Positions 13,187 through 62,264 of a stretch of DNA of 64,000 nt are shown here, in pieces. The number at the start of each line of letters is the position of its first letter. Position 1 is the stretch's first letter. The stretch lies in assembly GCF_019890615.1 (NCBI RefSeq), contig NZ_JAINVZ010000010.1, positions 62,001 through 126,000 on the forward strand, in the 5' to 3' direction. This DNA comes from Streptantibioticus parmotrematis. Its GTDB lineage: Bacteria > Actinomycetota > Actinomycetes > Streptomycetales > Streptomycetaceae. The notes beneath the pieces were generated by a model that saw only the letters and a list, made by a program, of their open reading frames with translations, did not search any database and had not been told where the DNA came from. Made by a program: the position numbers and the translations under genes.

Positions 13187-13259
<73 letters not shown>

Positions 13260-13267
13260 CATCGTGG

Positions 13268-28770: not shown

Positions 28771-28860
28771 ATGAACAGCCCCAGGGTGGATCAGGTCAGC
28801 GGAGTGGCCCGATCCCGTCCGGGGAGGTCGTGTGCGAGGCGGCGCGTGCGAAGGCGATGA
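28771..28860 (+). CDS. Arg-rich 29-codon leader ORF overlapping the metalloprotease start
   Basis: An ATG preceded by AAGAGG with almost no gap opens a 29-codon frame that contains ten Arg codons, six of them in the last seven codons. It ends with TGA at 28858-28860, inside the next gene (+1 frame relative). The good promoter and ribosome site suggest it is translated. It could couple translation to the protease or act as an attenuator sensitive to arginyl-tRNA. It could also be the remnant of the original N-terminus after a frameshift. Confidence 0.4.
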   Translation: MNSPRVDQVSGVARSRPGRSCARRRVRRR

Positions 28861-30199
28861 CGCCTGCGATGGCGACGACTTCGGGGCCGGAGACGGCGCC
28901 TTCGAAGGCGGTGGCGACGACTTCGGGGGCATGGACGGCGATGCCTTCGAGGGGCCCGAGCCGTACCCCCTGCGCAGGGCGGCGGCGCTGGCCGTGGGGT
29001 TCCTCGCGCTGGTCGCCTGGGCGCTGGCCGCCGGGCCCGCGCAGGCCGCCTCCGCCAACGGCCCGTGCGCCCTGGCGACGACCGGGGCCCGGCACTCCGA
29101 GGGCCTGTCCGCCTGGGACGCCGCCTACCCGCGCCCGCTGGGCGAGGTGAACGCGGCGATGTTCTTCCTGTCCTTCCCCGACCACACCCCCGACGTCGGC
29201 ACCGGCGTCCTCGCCGCCGACCACTTCCCCGCCACCACCGAGTTCTTCGACCGCGCCTCGTACGGCCGCTTCCGGCTGCGCCCGCGGATCACACGCCGCT
29301 GGTACCGCATGCCGCGCCCCTCCACCGCGTACGGCATCGCCCGCGCCTGGAGCCCGGCCGACCGCACCCGCTACATCCGCGACGCGCTGGCGCTGGTGGG
29401 CCGGGGTGACGACCTGCGCGGCGTGCCGGTGGTCTACCTGGTCGCCGACCCCGACGCGCCGGGCGTGGACTCGGACGCGACCAAGGTCGTCAGCTTCGAC
29501 CAGCCGCTGCGGGCCGGCGGCACGTCGCTCAAGAGCGTCGTCACCGTCTTCGAGCACCACCCGCCCGACCCCAACGTCCTCGCCCACGAGACCAACCACG
29601 TCTTCGACCTGCCCGACCTCTACCGCCAGCCGCCCACCGCACCCGGCGGCGGCAGCGCGGGCGACGCGGCGGCCGACTCCTGGGACGCGCAGGTCGGCGA
29701 CTGGGACCTCATGGGCAGCCAGTTCGGCCTGGCACCCGACCTGTTCGCCTGGCACCGCTGGAAGTACGGCTGGATCGACCGCTCCCAGGTCGCCTGCGTG
29801 GACCACCCCGGCACCAGGACCACCCGCACGCTCACCCCGGTCGAGACGGCGGGCGGCACGAAGCTGGTCGTGGTGCGCACCAGCGCCACCTCCGCGCTCG
29901 CCGTCGAGGCCAGGGCGCAGCGCGGCAACGACGTCACCGCCTGCCGCGAGGGCGTCCTGCTGTACGAGGTGCGCAGCGACGTCGACACCGGCGAGGGCCC
30001 GATCCGCGTCCTGGACGGCCATCCGCGCACCGGCGCGTGCTACGGCGCCTCGGTGCGCCCCCAACTGGCGGACGCGCCGCTGGGCGCGGGGGAGTCGTAC
30101 GCGTACCGCTTCGGCCCGTCGGCGCACGAGACGGTGGACGTGCGGGTGGACGCGCGCACCGCGGCCGGTGACTGGCGGGTCACGGTGGTGGAGCCGTGA
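28832..30199 (+). CDS. M6-type secreted metalloprotease-like protein (first of a tandem pair)
   Basis: This 455-aa protein carries the zinc-binding motif HETNH followed by VFDLPDLY (first His at residue 252), the pattern of M6/immune-inhibitor-A-like proteases. The N-terminus is odd: an acidic Gly/Asp-rich stretch with a 14-residue imperfect duplication (GDDFGAGD... and GDDFGGMD...) precedes the hydrophobic signal segment at residues 49-70. The GTG at 28832 has GGGGAGG 4 nt upstream. A start at ATG 28931 would remove most of the acidic part and leave a conventional signal peptide. It ends in a GTGA overlap with its paralog. Confidence 0.72.
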   Translation: MRGGACEGDDACDGDDFGAGDGAFEGGGDDFGGMDGDAFEGPEPYPLRRAAALAVGFLALVAWALAAGPAQAASANGPCALATTGARHSEGLSAWDAAYPRPLGEVNAAMFFLSFPDHTPDVGTGVLAADHFPATTEFFDRASYGRFRLRPRITRRWYRMPRPSTAYGIARAWSPADRTRYIRDALALVGRGDDLRGVPVVYLVADPDAPGVDSDATKVVSFDQPLRAGGTSLKSVVTVFEHHPPDPNVLAHETNHVFDLPDLYRQPPTAPGGGSAGDAAADSWDAQVGDWDLMGSQFGLAPDLFAWHRWKYGWIDRSQVACVDHPGTRTTRTLTPVETAGGTKLVVVRTSATSALAVEARAQRGNDVTACREGVLLYEVRSDVDTGEGPIRVLDGHPRTGACYGASVRPQLADAPLGAGESYAYRFGPSAHETVDVRVDARTAAGDWRVTVVEP

Positions 30200-31437
30200 T
30201 ATCCGGTGGCGGGAGCGGCGTTTGGCGCCGCATACGCACGAGGGTGGCGCTGCTGGTCGGCGTGCTCGGGGTGGTGGCGGCCTGCGCGGTGGGGGTGGAG
30301 ACGGTCGCGTCCGGAGCCCCGGCGGCCGCGCCGCCCGGCCGCCCCTGCGCGTTGCGGGCGGCGCCGGGCGTGGAGATGTCCGAGGGCTTCCCGGCCACCC
30401 GCAGCGGTGAGTACGCGCGCTCGACGGGCGTGCTGCGGGCGCTGACGCTGTTCATCGACTTCCCCGACGCGCCCGCGAAGGAGTCGGCGAAGGCGCGCTA
30501 CGACGAGTTCTTCCCGTTCGTGCAGCAGTGGTACGACCGCGCCTCGTACGGCAGGCTGCGCTACGAACCGGTGCCGGTGCTGCGGTGGTTCAGGATGCCG
30601 CACCCGTTCTCCGCGTACGGGATAACGCGCGGCTACGGCTGGCCGGTCCACCGCGCGATGATGCGGGACCTGGCGGCGGTCGTGGGGCGGACGGTGGACT
30701 TCCGGGGCTACGACCTGGTCAACGTCATAGCGGCCCCCAACGCGGGCCCGCCCGCCGACCGCACGGTCCTGTCGGTCACCTGGACCGGCGGCAACGCGGC
30801 CACCACGGAGAGCGGCACCCACCTGGACCGCGTCTCGGTGATCTACGGTCACGACCAGGCGGGCCCCCGGGTCCTGGCCCACGAGAACGGCCACATCCTG
30901 GGCCTGCCCGACCTCTACGCGGTCGACGACTTCGCCCGCACGGACACGCTGGCCGGCCAGTGGGACACGATGTCGCTCGACTGGGGCCTCCAAGGCGAGC
31001 CGCTGGCCTGGCACAAATGGCGCCTGGGCTGGCTGACCGACGCGCAGGTGGCCTGCGTCAGCCGTCCCGGCACCCGGGAGGTGGCCCTGTCCCCGCTGGA
31101 AGTGCCCGGCGGACGCAAGGCGGTGATCGTGCCGTTCGGCAGGACGACGGCGTACGTGGTGGAGGCCCGCAGGGCGCTCGGCAACGACGGCCAGGCCTGC
31201 ACGGAGGGCGTCCTGATCTACCGGGTCCGCACGGATGTCCCGTCGGGCCAGGGCCCCGTCCAGATCATGGACGCCCACCCGAGGACGGCGGCGTGCACGT
31301 ACAGCAGCAGTGCGTTCAATTCGTTGAACGACGCGCCGTACGGGGTGGGTTCGACGTTCAGGACGAGGGGTTTGACGGTGAGGGTGCTGGGGCGGAACGC
31401 GGAGGGGGGTTGGACGGTGAGGGTGGGGAGGGGGTGA
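30196..31437 (+). CDS. M6-type secreted metalloprotease-like protein (second of a tandem pair)
   Basis: This 413-aa protein is clearly paralogous to the preceding one. It shares the YDRASYGRLR segment, the zinc motif HENGH-ILGLPDLY (first His at residue 229), QVACVSRPGTR and a closing VRVG strand. It has a conventional signal anchor (WRRIRTRVALLVGVLGVVAAC). The Cys at the end of that segment follows VAA, a weak lipobox. The GTG start overlaps the upstream TGA, so the two are translationally coupled. They probably arose by tandem duplication and then diverged strongly. Substrate is unknown. Confidence 0.78.
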   Translation: MISGGGSGVWRRIRTRVALLVGVLGVVAACAVGVETVASGAPAAAPPGRPCALRAAPGVEMSEGFPATRSGEYARSTGVLRALTLFIDFPDAPAKESAKARYDEFFPFVQQWYDRASYGRLRYEPVPVLRWFRMPHPFSAYGITRGYGWPVHRAMMRDLAAVVGRTVDFRGYDLVNVIAAPNAGPPADRTVLSVTWTGGNAATTESGTHLDRVSVIYGHDQAGPRVLAHENGHILGLPDLYAVDDFARTDTLAGQWDTMSLDWGLQGEPLAWHKWRLGWLTDAQVACVSRPGTREVALSPLEVPGGRKAVIVPFGRTTAYVVEARRALGNDGQACTEGVLIYRVRTDVPSGQGPVQIMDAHPRTAACTYSSSAFNSLNDAPYGVGSTFRTRGLTVRVLGRNAEGGWTVRVGRG

Positions 31438-31710: not shown

Positions 31711-31716
31711 GAACCG

Positions 31717-31789
<73 letters not shown>

Positions 31790-33531: not shown

Positions 33532-33556
33532 CAGGTCAACGGACTTGCCGTGATGG

Positions 33557-33629
<73 letters not shown>

Positions 33630-34604: not shown

Positions 34605-34976
34605 TCAGTCGACCGTCGGCCGCTGCCGGAGGAGATCCGTGCCGAACTCGATCATCCGCTGGGCGTAGTCCTCCGACCAGTCGGCCCGCCGGGCGATCGA
34701 CTCCACCGTCGCGCGGTCGAAGCGCTTGGGGTCGGCGAGCTGCGCGGCAGCCATCGCCTGGAACTCGGTGGCCCGGTCGGCCGCCGCCCGGAAGGCCAGC
34801 GCCAGTTCGGTGGAACGCTCCAGCAGCTCGCCCGGGTCGTCCATCGACTCCAGGTCGAAGAAGTGCTCCGGATCGTCCGCGGCGGCCTCGGGCTCGAAGA
34901 GCAGCGGCGCGGGCCGCATCCTGGGCCGGCCCGCGGCGGCGTCCGGCGTCTGCTGAGCCGAGTTCGGCTCGGACAT
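34605..34976 (-). CDS. Small acidic protein of unknown function, 123 aa, end of the nuclease-helicase run
   Basis: This protein starts MSEPNSAQQT and has an acidic, Pro/Ala-rich first third. It is then predicted all-helical (LLERSTELALAFRAAADRATEFQAMAAAQLADP, then SEDYAQRMIEFGTDLLRQ), which suggests an adaptor or HTH-like fold. GGAGGTAGGGAG precedes the ATG directly. It lies 83 bp downstream of the helicase gene on the same strand and may be part of that operon. No family is recognised. Confidence 0.65.
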   Translation of the reverse strand: MSEPNSAQQTPDAAAGRPRMRPAPLLFEPEAAADDPEHFFDLESMDDPGELLERSTELALAFRAAADRATEFQAMAAAQLADPKRFDRATVESIARRADWSEDYAQRMIEFGTDLLRQRPTVD

Positions 34977-35059
34977 CTCCCTACCTCCAGGTTGTGGACC
35001 GCCATCCATTCTCCCGCACCCGCGCAAGCCCCCGGAGGCTCGCGGCCCCGGGTCCCGAC

Positions 35060-36427
35060 CTACGCCTCCCACCGCACCCGGTGCTCCGCCAGCCGGGCCA
35101 GTACCGCGTGGTTGGCCTCCCAGCCGTCCGGGAACTTCACCGTCACACCGAGCTGCACCGGCTCGGTGGAGGGGTGGTCGTCCAGCAGCCGTTCGACGCC
35201 CGCGCGGCAGACCACCACACAGGCGTGCCGGTGCCGGGAGGCCAGCACGCACAGGCGGCCGGTCTCCAGGTGGAACGCGGTCGCGTCCGGCCGCCCGGAC
35301 AGCGGATGGAGCACGACCGTCACGTCGAACTCCCGCCCCTGCAACCGGTTCGCGGTGTCCACCGCGACGCCGGTCACGCCGAGCCCGGCCAGCGCCGAGC
35401 GGACCGCCGCCGCCTGGTCGCGGTGCGCGGTGCCGACCGCGATCCGGTCGGCGGTCAGCGGCGCGGGCTCGTCGGACCGCTCGCTGACCGTCACCCCGCC
35501 GCGTTCCAGCATCCGGCGCACCACGAGCGCCACCGCCGCGACCGCCTCCGGATCGGTGCGCGGGGTGTGCCGGGCGGGCAGCTCCAGCAGGCCCCAGCCG
35601 CTGACCGCCGCCTCGTCCAGCACCCGGTCGGCCGCCCCGCCGTCCGAGGCCACGCCGAACGCCATCCGCCGGTCCCCGTGGTCCGTCCCGCTGCGGAACG
35701 GCGTGTACGGGTAGAACGCGCCGGAGATCAGCGGCGCCGCCGACGCGGGCAGCCGCCAGGACACCGGCAGCCGGTGCTGCGGCAGATCGGGGTTGTGGGC
35801 GAGCAGCGTGACGACCGCGCTGGCCGACGGGTCGTAGGACAGTCCCGCCCACTGCTCGGCGCCCACCACGCTGAACGGGTCGAGCTGCCCGGGATCGCCC
35901 ACGAACAGCGCCCGTTCGAAGAGCCCGGCCACCCGCAGCAACGCGTCGGAGCGCATCTGGTACGCCTCGTCCACGATCGCGTGCCGCCACGGCTCGACGT
36001 CCTTGACGTAGCCCCACTTGGCCGCGGTCGCGATCACCACCTGCCGCTCCAGCAGGTCCGCGACCTTCGCCGACTTCAGGATCGACGGGTGCCGGTCCAG
36101 CACGGGGTCGGGCGGCGAGTCGGAGCCGTGCAAGCGGCCCACCGCCAGCTCGGGGTCGGCCGTCGCGAGCCGGTCGGCGAGGTCGTCCACCTGGGCGTTG
36201 GTCTGCGCGACGATCATCAACCGCTCGCCGGACGCGGCCAGTTCGCGGGCCGCGCGCACCACGAGCGTCGACTTGCCCGCACCGGGCGGGGAGTCCACCA
36301 CGACACCGCGCCGGGTGCCGTGCCGGGCGTCGCGCAGGATCGCCTCGGTGGCCCGGGCGGCGGCGGACGCCGGGTCGTCGCCCGGACGGTCGTCGCCGGA
36401 CACGGGGGCGGTCACGGTCTCGCTCAC
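35060..36427 (-). CDS. Superfamily 1 (Upf1/Dna2-like) helicase
   Basis: This 455-aa ATPase has motif I SPPGAGKST (residues 46-54), motif Ia AQTNAQVDDLADRL, motif II IVDEAYQM (Walker B, residues 151-158), motif III VGDPGQLDP (176-184), a WRLP-type motif IV, motif V VDTANRLQGREFD and motif VI LASRHRHA. The order and the DEAY and GDPGQL variants fit the SF1B Upf1/Dna2 branch rather than UvrD/RecB. The true start is the GTG at 36427, overlapping the upstream TGA as GTGA with GGGGAGG ahead. At 455 aa it is small and has no fused nuclease. The nuclease is encoded two genes upstream. Confidence 0.85.
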   Translation of the reverse strand: MSETVTAPVSGDDRPGDDPASAAARATEAILRDARHGTRRGVVVDSPPGAGKSTLVVRAARELAASGERLMIVAQTNAQVDDLADRLATADPELAVGRLHGSDSPPDPVLDRHPSILKSAKVADLLERQVVIATAAKWGYVKDVEPWRHAIVDEAYQMRSDALLRVAGLFERALFVGDPGQLDPFSVVGAEQWAGLSYDPSASAVVTLLAHNPDLPQHRLPVSWRLPASAAPLISGAFYPYTPFRSGTDHGDRRMAFGVASDGGAADRVLDEAAVSGWGLLELPARHTPRTDPEAVAAVALVVRRMLERGGVTVSERSDEPAPLTADRIAVGTAHRDQAAAVRSALAGLGVTGVAVDTANRLQGREFDVTVVLHPLSGRPDATAFHLETGRLCVLASRHRHACVVVCRAGVERLLDDHPSTEPVQLGVTVKFPDGWEANHAVLARLAEHRVRWEA

Positions 36428-37980
36428 AACAGGTCCTCCCCGGTCACCGGATCGGGCGGCCCGGCCACCGGCGCGGCGGACGGCGGGCCGCCATGCGTCC
36501 ACGGGGTGGAGTCCGCGTCGGGCAGATCGGGGCCGCCGCGCGCGGTGTGCTCGAACAGCGTCCAGCACACCGCGTCGCCGACCGCGGGAACCGTGCCCGC
36601 GTCCGGCTCCTTGCCGCGCCCCATGCCGTTCAACAGCCTCACGGTGAGCGCCCGTTGGTCCACCCATCCGGTGAACTCCGCCTCCTGCACGCGTCCGTCC
36701 GGCAGCGCGCGGTACAGCCTGCCGCCCTCGTCCAGGTGCGGCAGGTCGTCGGTGGCGAGCGTCACCAGCGGGCGGGGCCTGGGCACCTTCGCCGCCGAGT
36801 AGGCCATCTCCACCGCGGTCACCTCGCCCGCCAGCGCCTCACCGGCCAGCCGCCGCCCCGCCATCACCAGCGGATCGTCCAGCGCCTCGCCCGCGTCCAG
36901 CCGCGCCTGCGCGGTCTCGCGTCCGGCGAGCTTCTGCGCCGCCGCGATCGCGTCGTCCCGCCGGGGCTGCGGCGGCTCCCCGGCGCGCACCCGGTCCCGG
37001 TGGCCGGTGAACGACCAGCGGTCCCGCTTCCAGCGTTCCTCCACGTGGCCGCCCGGCGGCAGTTCGCGCAGCAGGTCGACGCCGCGCCACACGTCGTCCC
37101 AAGCGGGCCGCGCCTGGCTCTCCAGCAGCGCCGCGATCTCCGCCACCGCGGCGGAGGGATCGGCGCCCCGGGTACGGGCCGCGTCGTAGCGCGCCATCGC
37201 GGGCGCCAGCGCCTTGTTGTCGAAGACCGGGTCGGTCGCGGGCCCGGCGGGCGGGCTGACCAGCAGGCCGCGCTCGTCCCGCGCCACCTGCGCGCGCGTA
37301 GCCGCCTCCAGTCCCGTCAGGCCGGGCGGCGGGTCGATCCAGCCCAGCAGCGCGCCCAGGTGCTGGTCCTCAAGACCGCTCTGGCCGGTCGCCCAGTGCC
37401 GGGTCAGCAGATCGGTCATCGCCACCAGCAGCGCGCTGCCCGGCACCCGGGCCCGCTCGCCGAAGTGCGTCAGCCAGCGGCCCAGCAGCGGGACGCGGGA
37501 GGGCGCCGGGTAGGGCTCGTCCGGGTTCTCCTCGGCGGTGCGGCGGAAGCGGGTGGCCCGGCCGAGCAGCCGCACGTAGTCGATCCCGGCGGCGTTCGGA
37601 ACGATCAACTGCGGTGCCTCGGCGCACAGTTCGCGCTCGACGGCCACCTTCTTGCCGGTCTCGGGATCGGTCTCCTTGCCGGGCTCCAGCTCGACGGCGT
37701 CCTCGTACACGGTGACGTACGGCAGGACCGCGTCGGCCAGTTCGGCCAGGAACGCCGACCTCAGGTCGCGGTCGCGCGGCTGCGGTACGACCAGCAGTCC
37801 GGGCTGGTCGCGGTCGGTGCCGACCAGCGCGCCCAGCGGTGCCCCGACCTCGCCCGCGGTGGTCAACGGCACGATGACCAGCGGCCGTTCGGACAGCCAC
37901 CGGTGTCGCACGGTCGCCAGCGGACGGGCCCGCCCGGCGGCCACCGCCTCGGCCCGCGCCAGCGTCGTCATCACCGACAT
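36424..37980 (-). CDS. Uncharacterised 518-aa partner between nuclease and helicase genes
   Basis: I recognise no family and see no Walker, HTH or metal motif. The N-terminal part (residues about 25-110) reads like alternating beta-strands (PLVIVPLTTAGEVGAPLGAL, LLVVPQPRDRDLRSAFLAEL). The middle is helical with LLGRWLTHFGERARVPGSALL and the C-terminus looks like a beta-barrel (GRVQEAEFTGWVDQRALTV). It overlaps the nuclease gene by 10 bp and the helicase gene by 4 bp, so the three are produced as a unit. It may be a scaffold, a DNA-binding subunit or the barrel domain missing from the short helicase. All three are inference. Confidence 0.75.
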   Translation of the reverse strand: MSVMTTLARAEAVAAGRARPLATVRHRWLSERPLVIVPLTTAGEVGAPLGALVGTDRDQPGLLVVPQPRDRDLRSAFLAELADAVLPYVTVYEDAVELEPGKETDPETGKKVAVERELCAEAPQLIVPNAAGIDYVRLLGRATRFRRTAEENPDEPYPAPSRVPLLGRWLTHFGERARVPGSALLVAMTDLLTRHWATGQSGLEDQHLGALLGWIDPPPGLTGLEAATRAQVARDERGLLVSPPAGPATDPVFDNKALAPAMARYDAARTRGADPSAAVAEIAALLESQARPAWDDVWRGVDLLRELPPGGHVEERWKRDRWSFTGHRDRVRAGEPPQPRRDDAIAAAQKLAGRETAQARLDAGEALDDPLVMAGRRLAGEALAGEVTAVEMAYSAAKVPRPRPLVTLATDDLPHLDEGGRLYRALPDGRVQEAEFTGWVDQRALTVRLLNGMGRGKEPDAGTVPAVGDAVCWTLFEHTARGGPDLPDADSTPWTHGGPPSAAPVAGPPDPVTGEDLL

Positions 37981-39125
37981 GACGCCTCCCGCCCCAGCGC
38001 CTCGGCCCGCAGCGCCGCCGCCCGGCGCAGGGCCACCGCCGCCGGATCGACGTCGCGGCCGTCTCCATCCCGCTCGTCTTCGGCCCCGTCCCGGCTGTCC
38101 CGGCCGTCCCGGTCGCCGTACGCCGCCGCCAGCAGCCGTTCCACCGTGGTCAACGTGCCCAGCTCGCCCCGCACGGAGCGGCCCAGCGCCTCGACCGCGC
38201 CGCGTTCCCTCGCCCGGTCCCGGCAGTGGTAGGCGAGTTCGCAGCTGTCCAGGCACTCCGGCGCGTACGCGGCGGGCACCGCCTCGACCGCCTCGGCCAG
38301 TTCGCCCGGCGGACGCTCCCGCGTGACGTCGAACGTCGTGCCCTCCGGCAGGGTCGCCGCGATCCGCTCCACCTTCGTCATCCGCGCCAACTGCCGCCTG
38401 GTGACCGCCAGTTGCCTGCGGACGTCGACCAGCTCGGCAGTCGGCACGTTGGAGAAGTCCTTCGGGCACACCAGCAGCACGTCCGGCCGGGGCGCGCTCG
38501 CGTCGAGCCGCTCCAGGGCCAGCACGTACACCGCGGCCTGCCGCGCCGCCGCGCCGACCTTCACCGGGTCGGCGACGCCGTCCAGAACGGGGAAGGACTT
38601 GACCTCGACCACCGTCCAGCCGCCGTCCGGGCGCACCGCCACCGCGTCCGGCTCCAGGTGGACCGGGGCGCCCGCCACCTCCAGCACCAGCAGCGGATGG
38701 TCCAGCAGCGTCCAGCGCCTGGCCGCCGTCGCCTCCTGAAGCGCCAGCCGGGTGCGGGCCACGCGGCCCTCGGGGCCCGCCGCCGCCAGGTCCGGCAGGT
38801 CGGCGGTCTCGCCCTCCGCCGCGCCCAGCAGCCGCAGCAACTCGGCGCAGCCGTCCGCCTTGACGCGGGCCTCGAACGCGTTGCCCCGGGCGAACGCGAA
38901 CTGCGACTGGCCGAACCGCTCCGGCGAGCCCAGCGCCCGCGCCACCGCGCCCTTGTCGACCCCGGCCGCGTCCAGCACGGCACGCCGCCCGCACCCCGGA
39001 TTGGCCGCGAGCGCCGCCAGCGCCCGGGCGTCCAGCGGGCGCGGCGGCACCCCGGGCCCGCGCAGCCCGGCCCACCGGGCGCGCTGGTCCACGGCCGCGG
39101 ACCGGCTGTCGCTGAAGTCGTTCAC
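37971..39125 (-). CDS. Cas4/AddB/Dna2-like iron-sulfur PD-(D/E)XK nuclease
   Basis: This 384-aa protein shows the full RecB-type nuclease pattern: G81-NAF-E85, D160 in HLEPDAVAV, E174-V-K176 in TVVEVKSF and Q196-AAV-Y200. Four cysteines are placed as in Cas4/AddB/Dna2 iron-sulfur nucleases: C45 before the nuclease core and C291-X3-C295-X5-C301 after it. The C-terminus is a charged Asp/Arg tail. The start is least certain. I chose the GTG at 39125, which has CAGACT 7 nt upstream (leaderless layout) and no ribosome site. The open frame extends further upstream. It heads a tightly overlapping set with an unknown protein and an SF1B helicase. Confidence 0.83.
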   Translation of the reverse strand: MNDFSDSRSAAVDQRARWAGLRGPGVPPRPLDARALAALAANPGCGRRAVLDAAGVDKGAVARALGSPERFGQSQFAFARGNAFEARVKADGCAELLRLLGAAEGETADLPDLAAAGPEGRVARTRLALQEATAARRWTLLDHPLLVLEVAGAPVHLEPDAVAVRPDGGWTVVEVKSFPVLDGVADPVKVGAAARQAAVYVLALERLDASAPRPDVLLVCPKDFSNVPTAELVDVRRQLAVTRRQLARMTKVERIAATLPEGTTFDVTRERPPGELAEAVEAVPAAYAPECLDSCELAYHCRDRARERGAVEALGRSVRGELGTLTTVERLLAAAYGDRDGRDSRDGAEDERDGDGRDVDPAAVALRRAAALRAEALGREASCR

Positions 39126-39225
39126 GCCCGGCAGTCTGGCATCCGCCACTGACAGCGCGCCTCCCGCGACCGGCAACGCGCCGTCCGCGGCGGGCGAACG
39201 GAGCCCGACACGGCGGACGGAGGGC

Positions 39226-60626: not shown

Positions 60627-62264
60627 CTACATCCGGAAGACGCCGTAGCCGGGGGCGAGCGGGCCCCGGTCCGGGATGGGCGCGTTGGCGCAGGCGGTCA
60701 GGGCCAGGCCCAGCACCGTGCGGGTCTGGAGCGGGTCGATCACGCCGTCGTCCCACAGCCGCGCGGTGGCGTAGTACGCGTTGCCCTGCGTCTCGTACTG
60801 GGCGCGGATCGGGTCCTTGAAGCGCTCCTCGTCCTCGGCGGGCCACTGCTCGCCCGCCGCCTCCAGCTGGTCGCGCTTGACGGTGGCGAGCACCGAGGCG
60901 GCCTGCTCACCACCCATCACGGAGATCTTCGCGTTGGGCCACATCCACAAGAATCGCGGAGAGTAGGCGCGACCGCACATCGAGTAGTTTCCCGCGCCGT
61001 AGGAGCCGCCGATGACCACGGTCAGCTTCGGCACCCGGGTGCAGGCGACCGCGGTGACCATCTTGGCGCCGTGCTTGGCGATGCCGCCCGCCTCGTACTG
61101 GCGGCCGACCATGAAACCGGAGATGTTCTGCAGGAAGAGCAGCGGGATGCCGCGCTGGTCGCACAACTCGATGAAGTGCGCGCCCTTGAGGGCGGACTCG
61201 CCGAACAGGATGCCGTTGTTGGCGACGATGCCGACCGGGTGGCCGTGCAGCCGGGCGAAGCCGGTGACCAGCGTCGTGCCGTACTCCGCCTTGAACTCGG
61301 CGAACCTGCTGCCGTCCACCAGTCGCGCGATGACCTCGCGCACGTCGTACGGCGTACGCGAGTCGACCGGGACGGCGCCGTAGAGCCCGGCCGGGTCGAC
61401 CGCGGGCTCCTCGACGGGCTCCACGGACCACGGCAGCGCGCCGCGGACGGGCAGCGTGCCGACGATGTCGCGGACGATGCGCAGCGCGTGGGCGTCGTCC
61501 TGCGCGAGGTGGTCGGTGACGCCGGAGACCTTGGAGTGCACCTCGCCGCCGCCCAGTTCCTCGGCGGTCACCACCTCGCCGGTGGCCGCCTTCACCAGCG
61601 GCGGGCCGCCGAGGAAGATCGTGCCCTGGTCGCGCACGATGACCGCCTCGTCGCTCATCGCGGGCACGTAGGCGCCGCCCGCGGTGCACGAGCCCATGAC
61701 GGCGGCGATCTGCGGGATGCCGCGGGCGGACATGGTGGCCTGGTTGTAGAAGATCCGGCCGAAGTGCTCGCGGTCGGGGAAGACCTCGTCCTGCCGGGGG
61801 AGGAAGGCGCCGCCGGAGTCCACCAGGTAGACGCACGGCAGGCGGTTCTCCAGGGCGACTTCCTGGGCGCGCAGGTGCTTCTTGACGGTCATCGGGTAGT
61901 ACGTGCCGCCCTTGACGGTGGCGTCGTTGGCGACGACCACCACCTCGCGGCCCGAGACCCGCCCGATCCCGGCGATCACACCGGCGGCCGGGGCCTGGCC
62001 CTCGTACATCCCGTCCGCGGCCAGCGGCGCCAGCTCCAGGAAGGGCGAGCCGGGGTCGAGCAGCCCGTCCACCCGGTCGCGGGGGAGCAGCTTGCCGCGC
62101 GCGGTGTGCCGGGCGCGGGACTTCTCCCCGCCGCCCAGCCGCGCGGCGGCGAGCTTCTCGCGCAGCCGGGCCGACAGCTCGGCGTGCGCCGCCGCGTTGG
62201 CCGCGAAGGCGTCGGAGGCCGGATCGGCCGCGCTGCGCAGCGCGGGTGGTGCCGTGTCACGCAT
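60627..62264 (-). CDS. Acyl-CoA carboxylase beta subunit (methylcrotonyl-CoA carboxylase type)
   Basis: This 545-aa carboxyltransferase has [37 protein letters not shown] in its N-half and [34 protein letters not shown] in its C-half, described here as motifs. The DREHFGRIF and [12 protein letters not shown] patterns are typical of the methylcrotonyl branch rather than propionyl-CoA carboxylase. It is the first gene of the operon, with AAGGGAG before the ATG, and lies 14 bp upstream of the alpha subunit. Confidence 0.93.

Follow-up and report, generated by a model that had tools for sequence, protein, structure and literature searches.

The window analysed here is a stretch of 64,000 nucleotides from the genome of Streptantibioticus parmotrematis (contig NZ_JAINVZ010000010.1, forward-strand positions 62,001 to 126,000), in which three overlapping genes on the minus strand encode a nuclease (NUC), a middle protein (MID) and a helicase (HEL), candidate parts of one Dna2-like enzyme. 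These genes and the features within them are as follows, with positions counted in the window.

37971-39125, minus strand: NUC, 384 amino acids, PD-(D/E)XK nuclease with a four-cysteine iron-sulfur ('iron staple') pattern
38991-38993, minus strand: C45, fourth cluster cysteine of NUC, invariant in 52/52 aligned rows
38598-38606, minus strand: E174-x-K176, nuclease active site of NUC, invariant in 52/52 rows
38223-38255, minus strand: C291, C295 and C301, C-terminal cluster cysteines of NUC, invariant in 52/52 rows
36424-37980, minus strand: MID, the middle protein of 518 amino acids
37030-37890, minus strand: MID residues 31-317, alpha/beta domain with a suggestive match to one entry, the polymerase TgoT
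36550-36864, minus strand: MID residues 373-477, end of the stalk and a beta-barrel resembling the 1B domain of Upf1/Dna2-type helicases
35060-36427, minus strand: HEL, 455 amino acids, superfamily 1B (SF1B) helicase core of the Upf1/Dna2 type
36266-36292, minus strand: Walker A motif of HEL (SPPGAGKST), invariant in 28 rows, with S53 nearly so

An earlier reading made from the letters and open reading frames (the sequence-only reading) had described the same operon, and its coordinates, strand, lengths and overlaps (10 bp between NUC and MID, 4 bp between MID and HEL) were all as claimed. A gap of 83 bp separates HEL from the gene of a small protein, P4. The start of NUC is ambiguous, the gene caller favouring a GTG at 39149 that would lengthen the protein to 392 amino acids.

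The first protein had been described as a nuclease with the cysteine pattern C45 and C291-X3-C295-X5-C301. This pattern is present, and in an alignment of 52 rows all four cysteines were invariant together with E158, E174, K176, Q196 and Y200, E85 and D160 each being kept in 51 rows; judged from this pattern, the cysteines would bind an iron-sulfur cluster. Pfam PDDEXK_1 matched NUC with 17.2 bits, below the cut-off of 22, and no PADLOC match and no NCBIfam match up to E 1 were obtained. A profile search of solved structures returned only designed proteins and ribosomal bL25, which we took as spurious, and since this search was uninformative, fold comparison was used instead. With the AlphaFold2 model of NUC (predicted local distance difference test, pLDDT, 90.8; predicted template modelling score, pTM, 0.86), Foldseek found the Cas4-family protein 9iac (E 1.7e-4) and MGME1, and VIA-align found Cas4 (7mi4, Z 10.9), Exo5 (7lwa, Z 9.0), AddAB (4ceh, Z 9.0), AdnA (7sjr, Z 8.5) and Dna2 (5eaw, Z 7.5 over 204 residues), in agreement with the Cas4/Dna2-type nuclease fold previously assigned.

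The assignment of HEL to the Upf1/Dna2 type of SF1B helicases was likewise confirmed, as the Pfam families AAA_11 (39.9 bits) and AAA_12 (31.1 bits) both scored above their cut-offs and the solved structure nearest to the HEL profile was mouse DNA2 (E 5e-10). UvrD_C_2 reached 12.5 bits, below its cut-off of 27.4. The Walker A motif begins at residue 46, leaving no space before it for a 1B domain.

No recognised motif had been noted in MID, and we found no Pfam family above cut-off, no NCBIfam or PADLOC match up to E 1, and nothing up to E 1 when its sequence was compared with solved structures. The AlphaFold2 model of MID, built with 65 sequences, reached a pLDDT of 93.2 and a pTM of 0.90, and its C-terminal end is built of two helices (344-378) followed by a sheet region of six strands (382-474). 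VIA-align superimposed residues 373-476 on residues 37-139 of IGHMBP2 (4b3f) with Z 10.0 and a root-mean-square deviation (rmsd) of 2.3 over 84 residues, with high scores also for Senataxin/Setx (8ftm, Z 8.4), Sen1 (8rao, Z 8.1) and residues 464-567 of Dna2 (5eaw, Z 7.8); we take the matched stretches of these four helicases to be their domain 1B. IGHMBP2 ranked first, Setx and Sen1 within the top six rows and Dna2 tenth, and four of the top six rows were a single domain from the class of helicases that includes HEL. The barrel forms the C-terminus of a separate protein here, and a second stalk helix was not located. The model supports a C-terminal part of MID that would supply a 1B-like stalk and barrel to HEL in trans. 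Since HEL is too short ahead of its Walker A to hold a 1B domain and MID has a 1B-like barrel, NUC, MID and HEL would repeat the order of Dna2 in three chains. The suggestion of the sequence-only reading that the middle protein could supply the barrel therefore stands as far as the fold is concerned, while the complex in which it would do so stays conditional.

The N-terminal part of MID was modelled only within the full-length protein. Its residues 31-317 matched residues 135-341 of the family-B polymerase TgoT (7b0f_A) with Z 9.1 and an rmsd of 3.7 over 181 residues, a stretch that is presumably the 3'-5' exonuclease (RNase H-like) domain of the polymerase. This part of MID may thus have an RNase H-like fold, as judged from one match in which catalytic residues were not identified. 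The match is of interest because the TM0106-family fusions L245 and L246, from other actinobacterial genomes, read nuclease, RNase_H_2 and IGHMBP2-like helicase in the same order. They differ in being single chains of 1168 and 1128 amino acids with cysteines spaced CX2CX2C and no CX3CX5C, and up to E 1 neither NUC nor MID matched the TM0106-family profile TIGR03491. We know of no DNA2 counterpart of the N-terminal domain of MID.

Two features of Dna2 and of its single-chain bacterial relative Bad were found at the locus, namely the four-cysteine PD-(D/E)XK nuclease (NUC) and the Upf1-like SF1B helicase (HEL); another, a nuclease and a helicase in one polypeptide, was not, as the window has three genes. 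According to published structural work, DNA2 carries its barrel on a stalk between nuclease and helicase (PMC4716839), and in Upf1-like helicases the barrel stands beside RecA1 on a two-helix stalk (PMC5452015). NUC-MID-HEL shares with eukaryotic DNA2 a predicted iron-sulfur nuclease, a probable stalk and beta-barrel and an SF1B helicase in the same order, but the eukaryotic protein is one chain with an oligonucleotide/oligosaccharide-binding (OB) domain before the nuclease (PMC4716839). Bad, from Geobacillus stearothermophilus, has already been published as a bacterial DNA2-like helicase-nuclease, and coupled helicase-nuclease activity is reported for DNA2 and Bad in PMC7430649, where the central domain of Bad is described as absent from eukaryotic DNA2 and without known structure. 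The same paper gives Bad an iron-staple nuclease and an SF1B helicase, as in NUC-MID-HEL, which is known here from genes and models, and calls Bad rare and sporadic; unlike that single polypeptide, the set described here consists of three genes and occurs in 24/25 of the searched genomes of the same family. NUC-MID-HEL is therefore classed as a variant of Dna2, differing from it by one defining feature, the single polypeptide, and presumably working like it.

Two further groups of end-processing enzymes bear comparison. AdnAB and AddAB, whose UvrD-like motors share a chain with the nuclease, are likewise multi-subunit helicase-nucleases for broken ends, and the fold of NUC resembles their nuclease domains; unlike them, HEL is a separate Upf1/Dna2-like protein with AAA_11 and AAA_12. 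Archaea have a Mre11-Rad50-HerA-NurA operon, and some relatives of the window operon also carry their own Mre11-Rad50 (SbcCD) pair, although the window copy has no SbcCD nearby and the motor and nuclease are here Dna2-like, unlike HerA and NurA.

The grouping of the three genes is not due to chance. MID was present in 31 of 41 relatives, including the 24 of 25 within the family, and NUC and HEL were both recognised beside it in 30/30 loci kept from the search of relatives. In a larger set of 121 MID loci (including two or more duplicates, with starts from our own gene calling), NUC was adjacent in 118 and HEL was recognised in 101; NUC and MID overlapped in 76 of the 118, and MID and HEL in 79 of 99 adjacent pairs. 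Among 246 genomes drawn evenly from the phylum, MID was found in 10, NUC in 11 and HEL with at least 219 bits in 11, while the matches to HEL in 23 further genomes were short ones of 55 bits or less. The 11 genomes with NUC are the same 11 as those with strong HEL matches and include all 10 with MID. The eleventh, G203, belongs to another class of the phylum and carries the operon in the same order (L154), with a MID of 75 bits and the CX3CX5C spacing of NUC retained. Together with the 30/30 loci, these 11 genomes answer the question of co-occurrence raised by the sequence-only reading, and in favour of the association. Its further idea that the overlaps imply stoichiometric synthesis would follow from the gene layout of the window, yet HEL lies apart from NUC-MID in 10/10 of the Micromonospora-type genomes searched. 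Next to the G203 operon (L154, G203:C4), the most divergent one, lie genes for type III restriction-modification, for a helicase of the UvrD type and for a protein weakly resembling Cas4.

Natural fusions were sought among the mapped loci, and no frame of fused NUC/MID/HEL size was present. In Amycolatopsis (L078:9635-11230) an in-frame deletion has brought the beginning of NUC and the greater part of MID into a joint frame of 531 amino acids, which is either real or an assembly error.

In a collection in which 84,980 species are each represented by a single genome, at least 591 relatives of MID were found, and the best 80 by nearness to an accessory-type query were mapped, with genes by our own gene calling. 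Four settings were distinguished. The first is that of the window, where NUC-MID-HEL is followed by the genes for P4 and a Prim-Pol-like protein, as also in the Streptomyces loci L132 and L139. In the second, the gene of a small protein, c13, precedes NUC-MID-HEL at conserved chromosomal sites of Actinomadura, Streptosporangium and others; the third consists of Micromonospora loci with NUC-MID and a HEL that is not adjacent; and in the fourth, SbcC-SbcD (Mre11-Rad50) stands beside c13-NUC-MID-HEL. SbcC showed AAA_23 and SbcC_Walker_B above cut-off, SbcD showed Metallophos above cut-off and SbcD_C slightly under it, and c13 matched no Pfam family up to E 0.01. In some Micromonospora (L080, L081 and L082), MID and HEL are separated by a gene of 349 to 780 amino acids. 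After merging records of the same locus (L060 = L062, L042 = L224, L171 = L241, L074 = L251), 26 distinct SbcCD loci remained, 22 with SbcCD arranged divergently and four with SbcCD co-directional behind HEL. The copy in the window belongs to the conserved chromosomal forms. Its host genome also has a pair of 1078 and 1203 amino acids (L174), which we presume from its architecture to be AdnAB, and a canonical SbcCD (L177), so that the window enzyme is not the sole end-processing machine of this organism.

The fourth setting is linked to the anti-plasmid system Wadjet (JetABCD). Wadjet genes were found in 20 of the 22 divergent-SbcCD loci (19/22 when a uniform stretch of about 20 kb was considered, those of L042 being visible only after the neighbouring stretch L224 was added), and all three types were represented: type I in ten loci (L045, L063, L065, L066, L067, L068, L075, L076, L077 and L171, the evidence in L045 being a JetC1 fragment only), type II in five (L042, L046, L069, L072 and L074) and type III in five (L060, L070, L071, L079 and L250). 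The labels derive from PADLOC profiles on representatives and, for the rest, from similarity to those. No Wadjet genes were found in the remaining two, L073 and L078; decay as the reason for their absence from L073 was rejected, as MID is intact there and type I restriction genes are adjacent. Among loci without SbcCD, Wadjet was found in 2/78 (L064 and L087, with L171 set aside) and recognised in 0/16 of a further set. All these counts are lower bounds, since some loci are cut by contig ends and few Jet references were available. On a MID tree of 60 rows, built by a quick method with support from the Shimodaira-Hasegawa-like approximate likelihood-ratio test (SH-aLRT) only, the Wadjet type changes at least nine times among the 21 linked rows; when the type labels were shuffled 300 times, 6 to 10 changes were obtained, most commonly nine, so that the observed number is no different from that of the shuffles, indicating that the types are freely exchanged while the link is kept. 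Directly behind HEL, three of these loci carry a DEAD-type helicase of 746-769 amino acids (L042:11909-14149, L171:11793-14042 and L250:5671-7980), whose best PADLOC match in L042 and L250 is a type IIG restriction enzyme.

The module is also found on plasmids and beside other defence genes. c13-NUC-MID-HEL-JetABCD is present on two Streptomyces plasmids, one of 186 kb, in which SbcD and SbcC are fragments only, and one of 300 kb, linear according to its record, in which both of these genes have full size; the plasmid annotations call NUC and MID hypothetical proteins and HEL an AAA family ATPase. In a class sample, MID was present in 40/256 genomes, and all four second copies adjoin defence genes, Wadjet in G220 and G308 and pPIWI-RE in G295 and G303, while the SbcCD-type single copy in G708 (= L074) adjoins Wadjet. 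At L248, c13-NUC-MID-HEL is divergent from a pPIWI-RE operon with PprPDDEXK, PprRE and PprDinG (pPIWI_RE_X 311 bits), and L249 is nearly identical in appearance, these two loci being the G295/G303 copies; a HmaA-like helicase lies beside pPIWI-RE in L248 and a type III methyltransferase in L249. No phage-borne relative was present among 102 pattern matches in viral contigs, and a search of phage records with the MID of L065 gave no match. No work linking Wadjet with a SbcCD/Dna2-like operon was found in open-licence PubMed Central titles and abstracts, where PMC12624138 and PMC12904381 mention Wadjet with SbcCD or RecBCD.

On the gene order, conservation, motifs, predicted folds, co-occurrence and genomic links observed here, we consider it probable that NUC-MID-HEL is one Dna2-like nuclease-helicase made as three polypeptides, which has been recruited by defence islands. 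The split Dna2-like complex put forward by the sequence-only reading is thus strengthened in its folds, in the barrel of MID and in the co-occurrence of its genes, and stays provisional in its joint assembly and in its supposed role in flap or replication repair. For this joint complex, the sequences and models suggest the following activities, substrates and biological role. HEL would be a two-domain SF1B motor, to which MID would contribute the stalk and beta-barrel of domain 1B as well as its N-terminal domain, and NUC would be the iron-sulfur nuclease that threads and cuts single-stranded DNA. The complex would load on a free DNA end and unwind and cut it, as Dna2 does after Mre11-Rad50 in eukaryotic resection. 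An end or gap would first arise from Wadjet or another nuclease in the case of the accessory copies, or from damage or foreign DNA in the case of the chromosomal ones; SbcCD, where present, would then trim or open the end, as its Pfam identity and adjacency suggest; and HEL, completed by the barrel of MID, would finally pull single-stranded DNA through NUC, which would cut it, as suggested by the folds. In the Wadjet-linked lineage with its own SbcCD and c13, the module most likely finishes off Wadjet-cut DNA, and the window copy probably acts on broken or foreign DNA ends with the ordinary cellular SbcCD.

More tentatively, and with somewhat less than even confidence, we propose that SbcC-SbcD, c13 and NUC-MID-HEL form a bacterial counterpart of Mre11-Rad50 and Dna2 resection in the shape of a dedicated mobile plug-in, repeatedly coupled to any Wadjet type or to pPIWI-RE, so that a plasmid or phage cut once would be destroyed completely, with the window holding the chromosomal ancestor or a sister form. 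It was unexpected that accessory copies are repeatedly paired with Mre11-Rad50 and Wadjet, and this hints at a role in the destruction of broken foreign DNA.

Several observations weigh against these proposals. Regarding the enzyme, an interface between NUC, MID and HEL is something that we infer, and the 1B match of MID derives from one predicted model, with which Foldseek gave no Protein Data Bank match at E 0.001 or better. Unrelated barrels follow closely in VIA-align, dihydroorotate dehydrogenase B with Z 8.3 and ferredoxin reductases and F1-ATPase with Z about 7 to 8, leaving a modest margin. Micromonospora-type loci have NUC-MID without an adjacent HEL. In favour of the association, however, a search covering 12 genomes found HEL kept elsewhere in the genome in 10/10 of those whose operon is broken, in two adjoining pieces in G284 and G286; in the two other genomes, which hold L081 and L087, the operon includes HEL. 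In addition, G273 (L162, G273:C17) keeps only a HEL remnant with stop codons, and NUC and MID were not found in it within the phylum sample.

As regards the defence link, the window copy has no recognised SbcCD or Wadjet neighbour, and the co-directional SbcCD loci L083, L088, L101 and L161 are without Wadjet genes. Wadjet presence needs only four changes on the MID tree, so that the link is mostly a single-clade trait and members of the clade are not independent. Moreover, although all three Wadjet types occur with the module, Wadjet is mostly found without it. The idea that Wadjet usually brings the module was rejected, as only one (probably two) of 59 JetC2/JetC3 regions, comprising 48 of 74 JetC2 rows and 11 JetC3 places, was linked; this region is L224. 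The probable second is L236, which breaks off with its contig and is likely to hold the remaining half of the L250 Wadjet. A further linked JetC2 (G708:C4 = L251) is among the 26 JetC2 rows outside the 59 regions. Of four JetC1 places in 215 genomes of the order, one was linked, two were not and one was a fragment.

The strongest alternative, which we nevertheless regard as unlikely, is that NUC-MID-HEL is purely an actinomycete housekeeping enzyme for DNA repair by resection or flap trimming, later and incidentally reused beside Wadjet and pPIWI-RE. Most mapped copies are chromosomal and syntenic within families, with neighbourhoods conserved in Actinomadura, Streptosporangium and Micromonospora, and such a role would suit the presence of MID in nearly every genome of the family and the lack of a recognised defence gene beside the window copy. 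However, the host genome is already equipped with the AdnAB-like pair and canonical SbcCD, all four second copies of the class sample and the SbcCD-type single copy in G708 adjoin defence genes, and the most distant copy, L154, adjoins type III restriction genes. Slightly less probable is a defence effector, the window copy included, that degrades foreign linear or nicked DNA on its own. Accessory copies do lie in defence islands and on the two Streptomyces plasmids, and HEL has PADLOC matches to defence-system helicases such as MkoA (E 3.5e-8), though these reflect shared SF1 motifs; there is, however, no PADLOC family for NUC or MID, and the near-universal retention in the family would be unusual for a defence system. 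It is improbable that NUC-MID is a unit of its own, for recombination or as a nuclease complex, and that HEL works independently of it as a helicase on DNA or RNA. In favour of this reading, NUC and MID stay together in Micromonospora while HEL lies some 36 kb (G242) or 48 kb (G285) away, and Upf1-like helicases often act on RNA; against it, HEL is retained in all ten such genomes searched, co-occurs with NUC-MID in the phylum sample and has no 1B domain of its own, whereas MID has a 1B-like one.

If NUC-MID-HEL is indeed one Dna2-like enzyme, the architecture of Dna2 would be separable, with the 1B barrel of the helicase coming from another protein and each part open to assay alone. The stalk, the barrel and the possible RNase H-like fold of MID would also offer a structural lead for the unexplained central domain of Bad. 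A resection-type machine accompanying all three Wadjet types would join break resection and anti-plasmid immunity, and the fate of DNA after Wadjet cutting becomes a testable question.

Around the window copy, a search that covered 28-46 kb and used references of types II and III only recognised no Jet protein. Elsewhere in the host genome, JetA3-JetB3-JetC3-like genes with no recognised JetD lie at G000:C56:271001-291000 (L237), and JetC3 matches occurred in 23/23 of the same-family genomes listed; the host set may represent a JetABC of condensin type and not a full Wadjet.

Two genes follow the operon in the window.

34605-34976, minus strand: P4, small protein of 123 amino acids
33709-34386, minus strand: Prim-Pol-like gene, next downstream of P4, 225 amino acids, marginal PF09250 match (23.5 bits against a cut-off of 22.8)

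P4 matched no Pfam family above cut-off, and NCBIfam and PADLOC gave nothing for it up to E 1. In 13/21 mapped loci a relative is encoded close to HEL, in three of these on the opposite strand. The Prim-Pol-like gene is a conserved neighbour by synteny in 9/21 mapped loci. Both proteins are probably outside the NUC-MID-HEL complex. The GC content of the window, taken in 2-kb steps, is 68 to 76%, and the host genome measures 7.4 Mb. Two tRNA-Lys (CTT) genes lie downstream of the operon on the minus strand (31716-31789 and 33554-33629), with a third at 13187-13260. Tandem paralogues of 455 and about 400 amino acids, secreted-looking by eye, are encoded at 28832-31437 on the plus strand, and this cluster is represented in 5/21 mapped loci.

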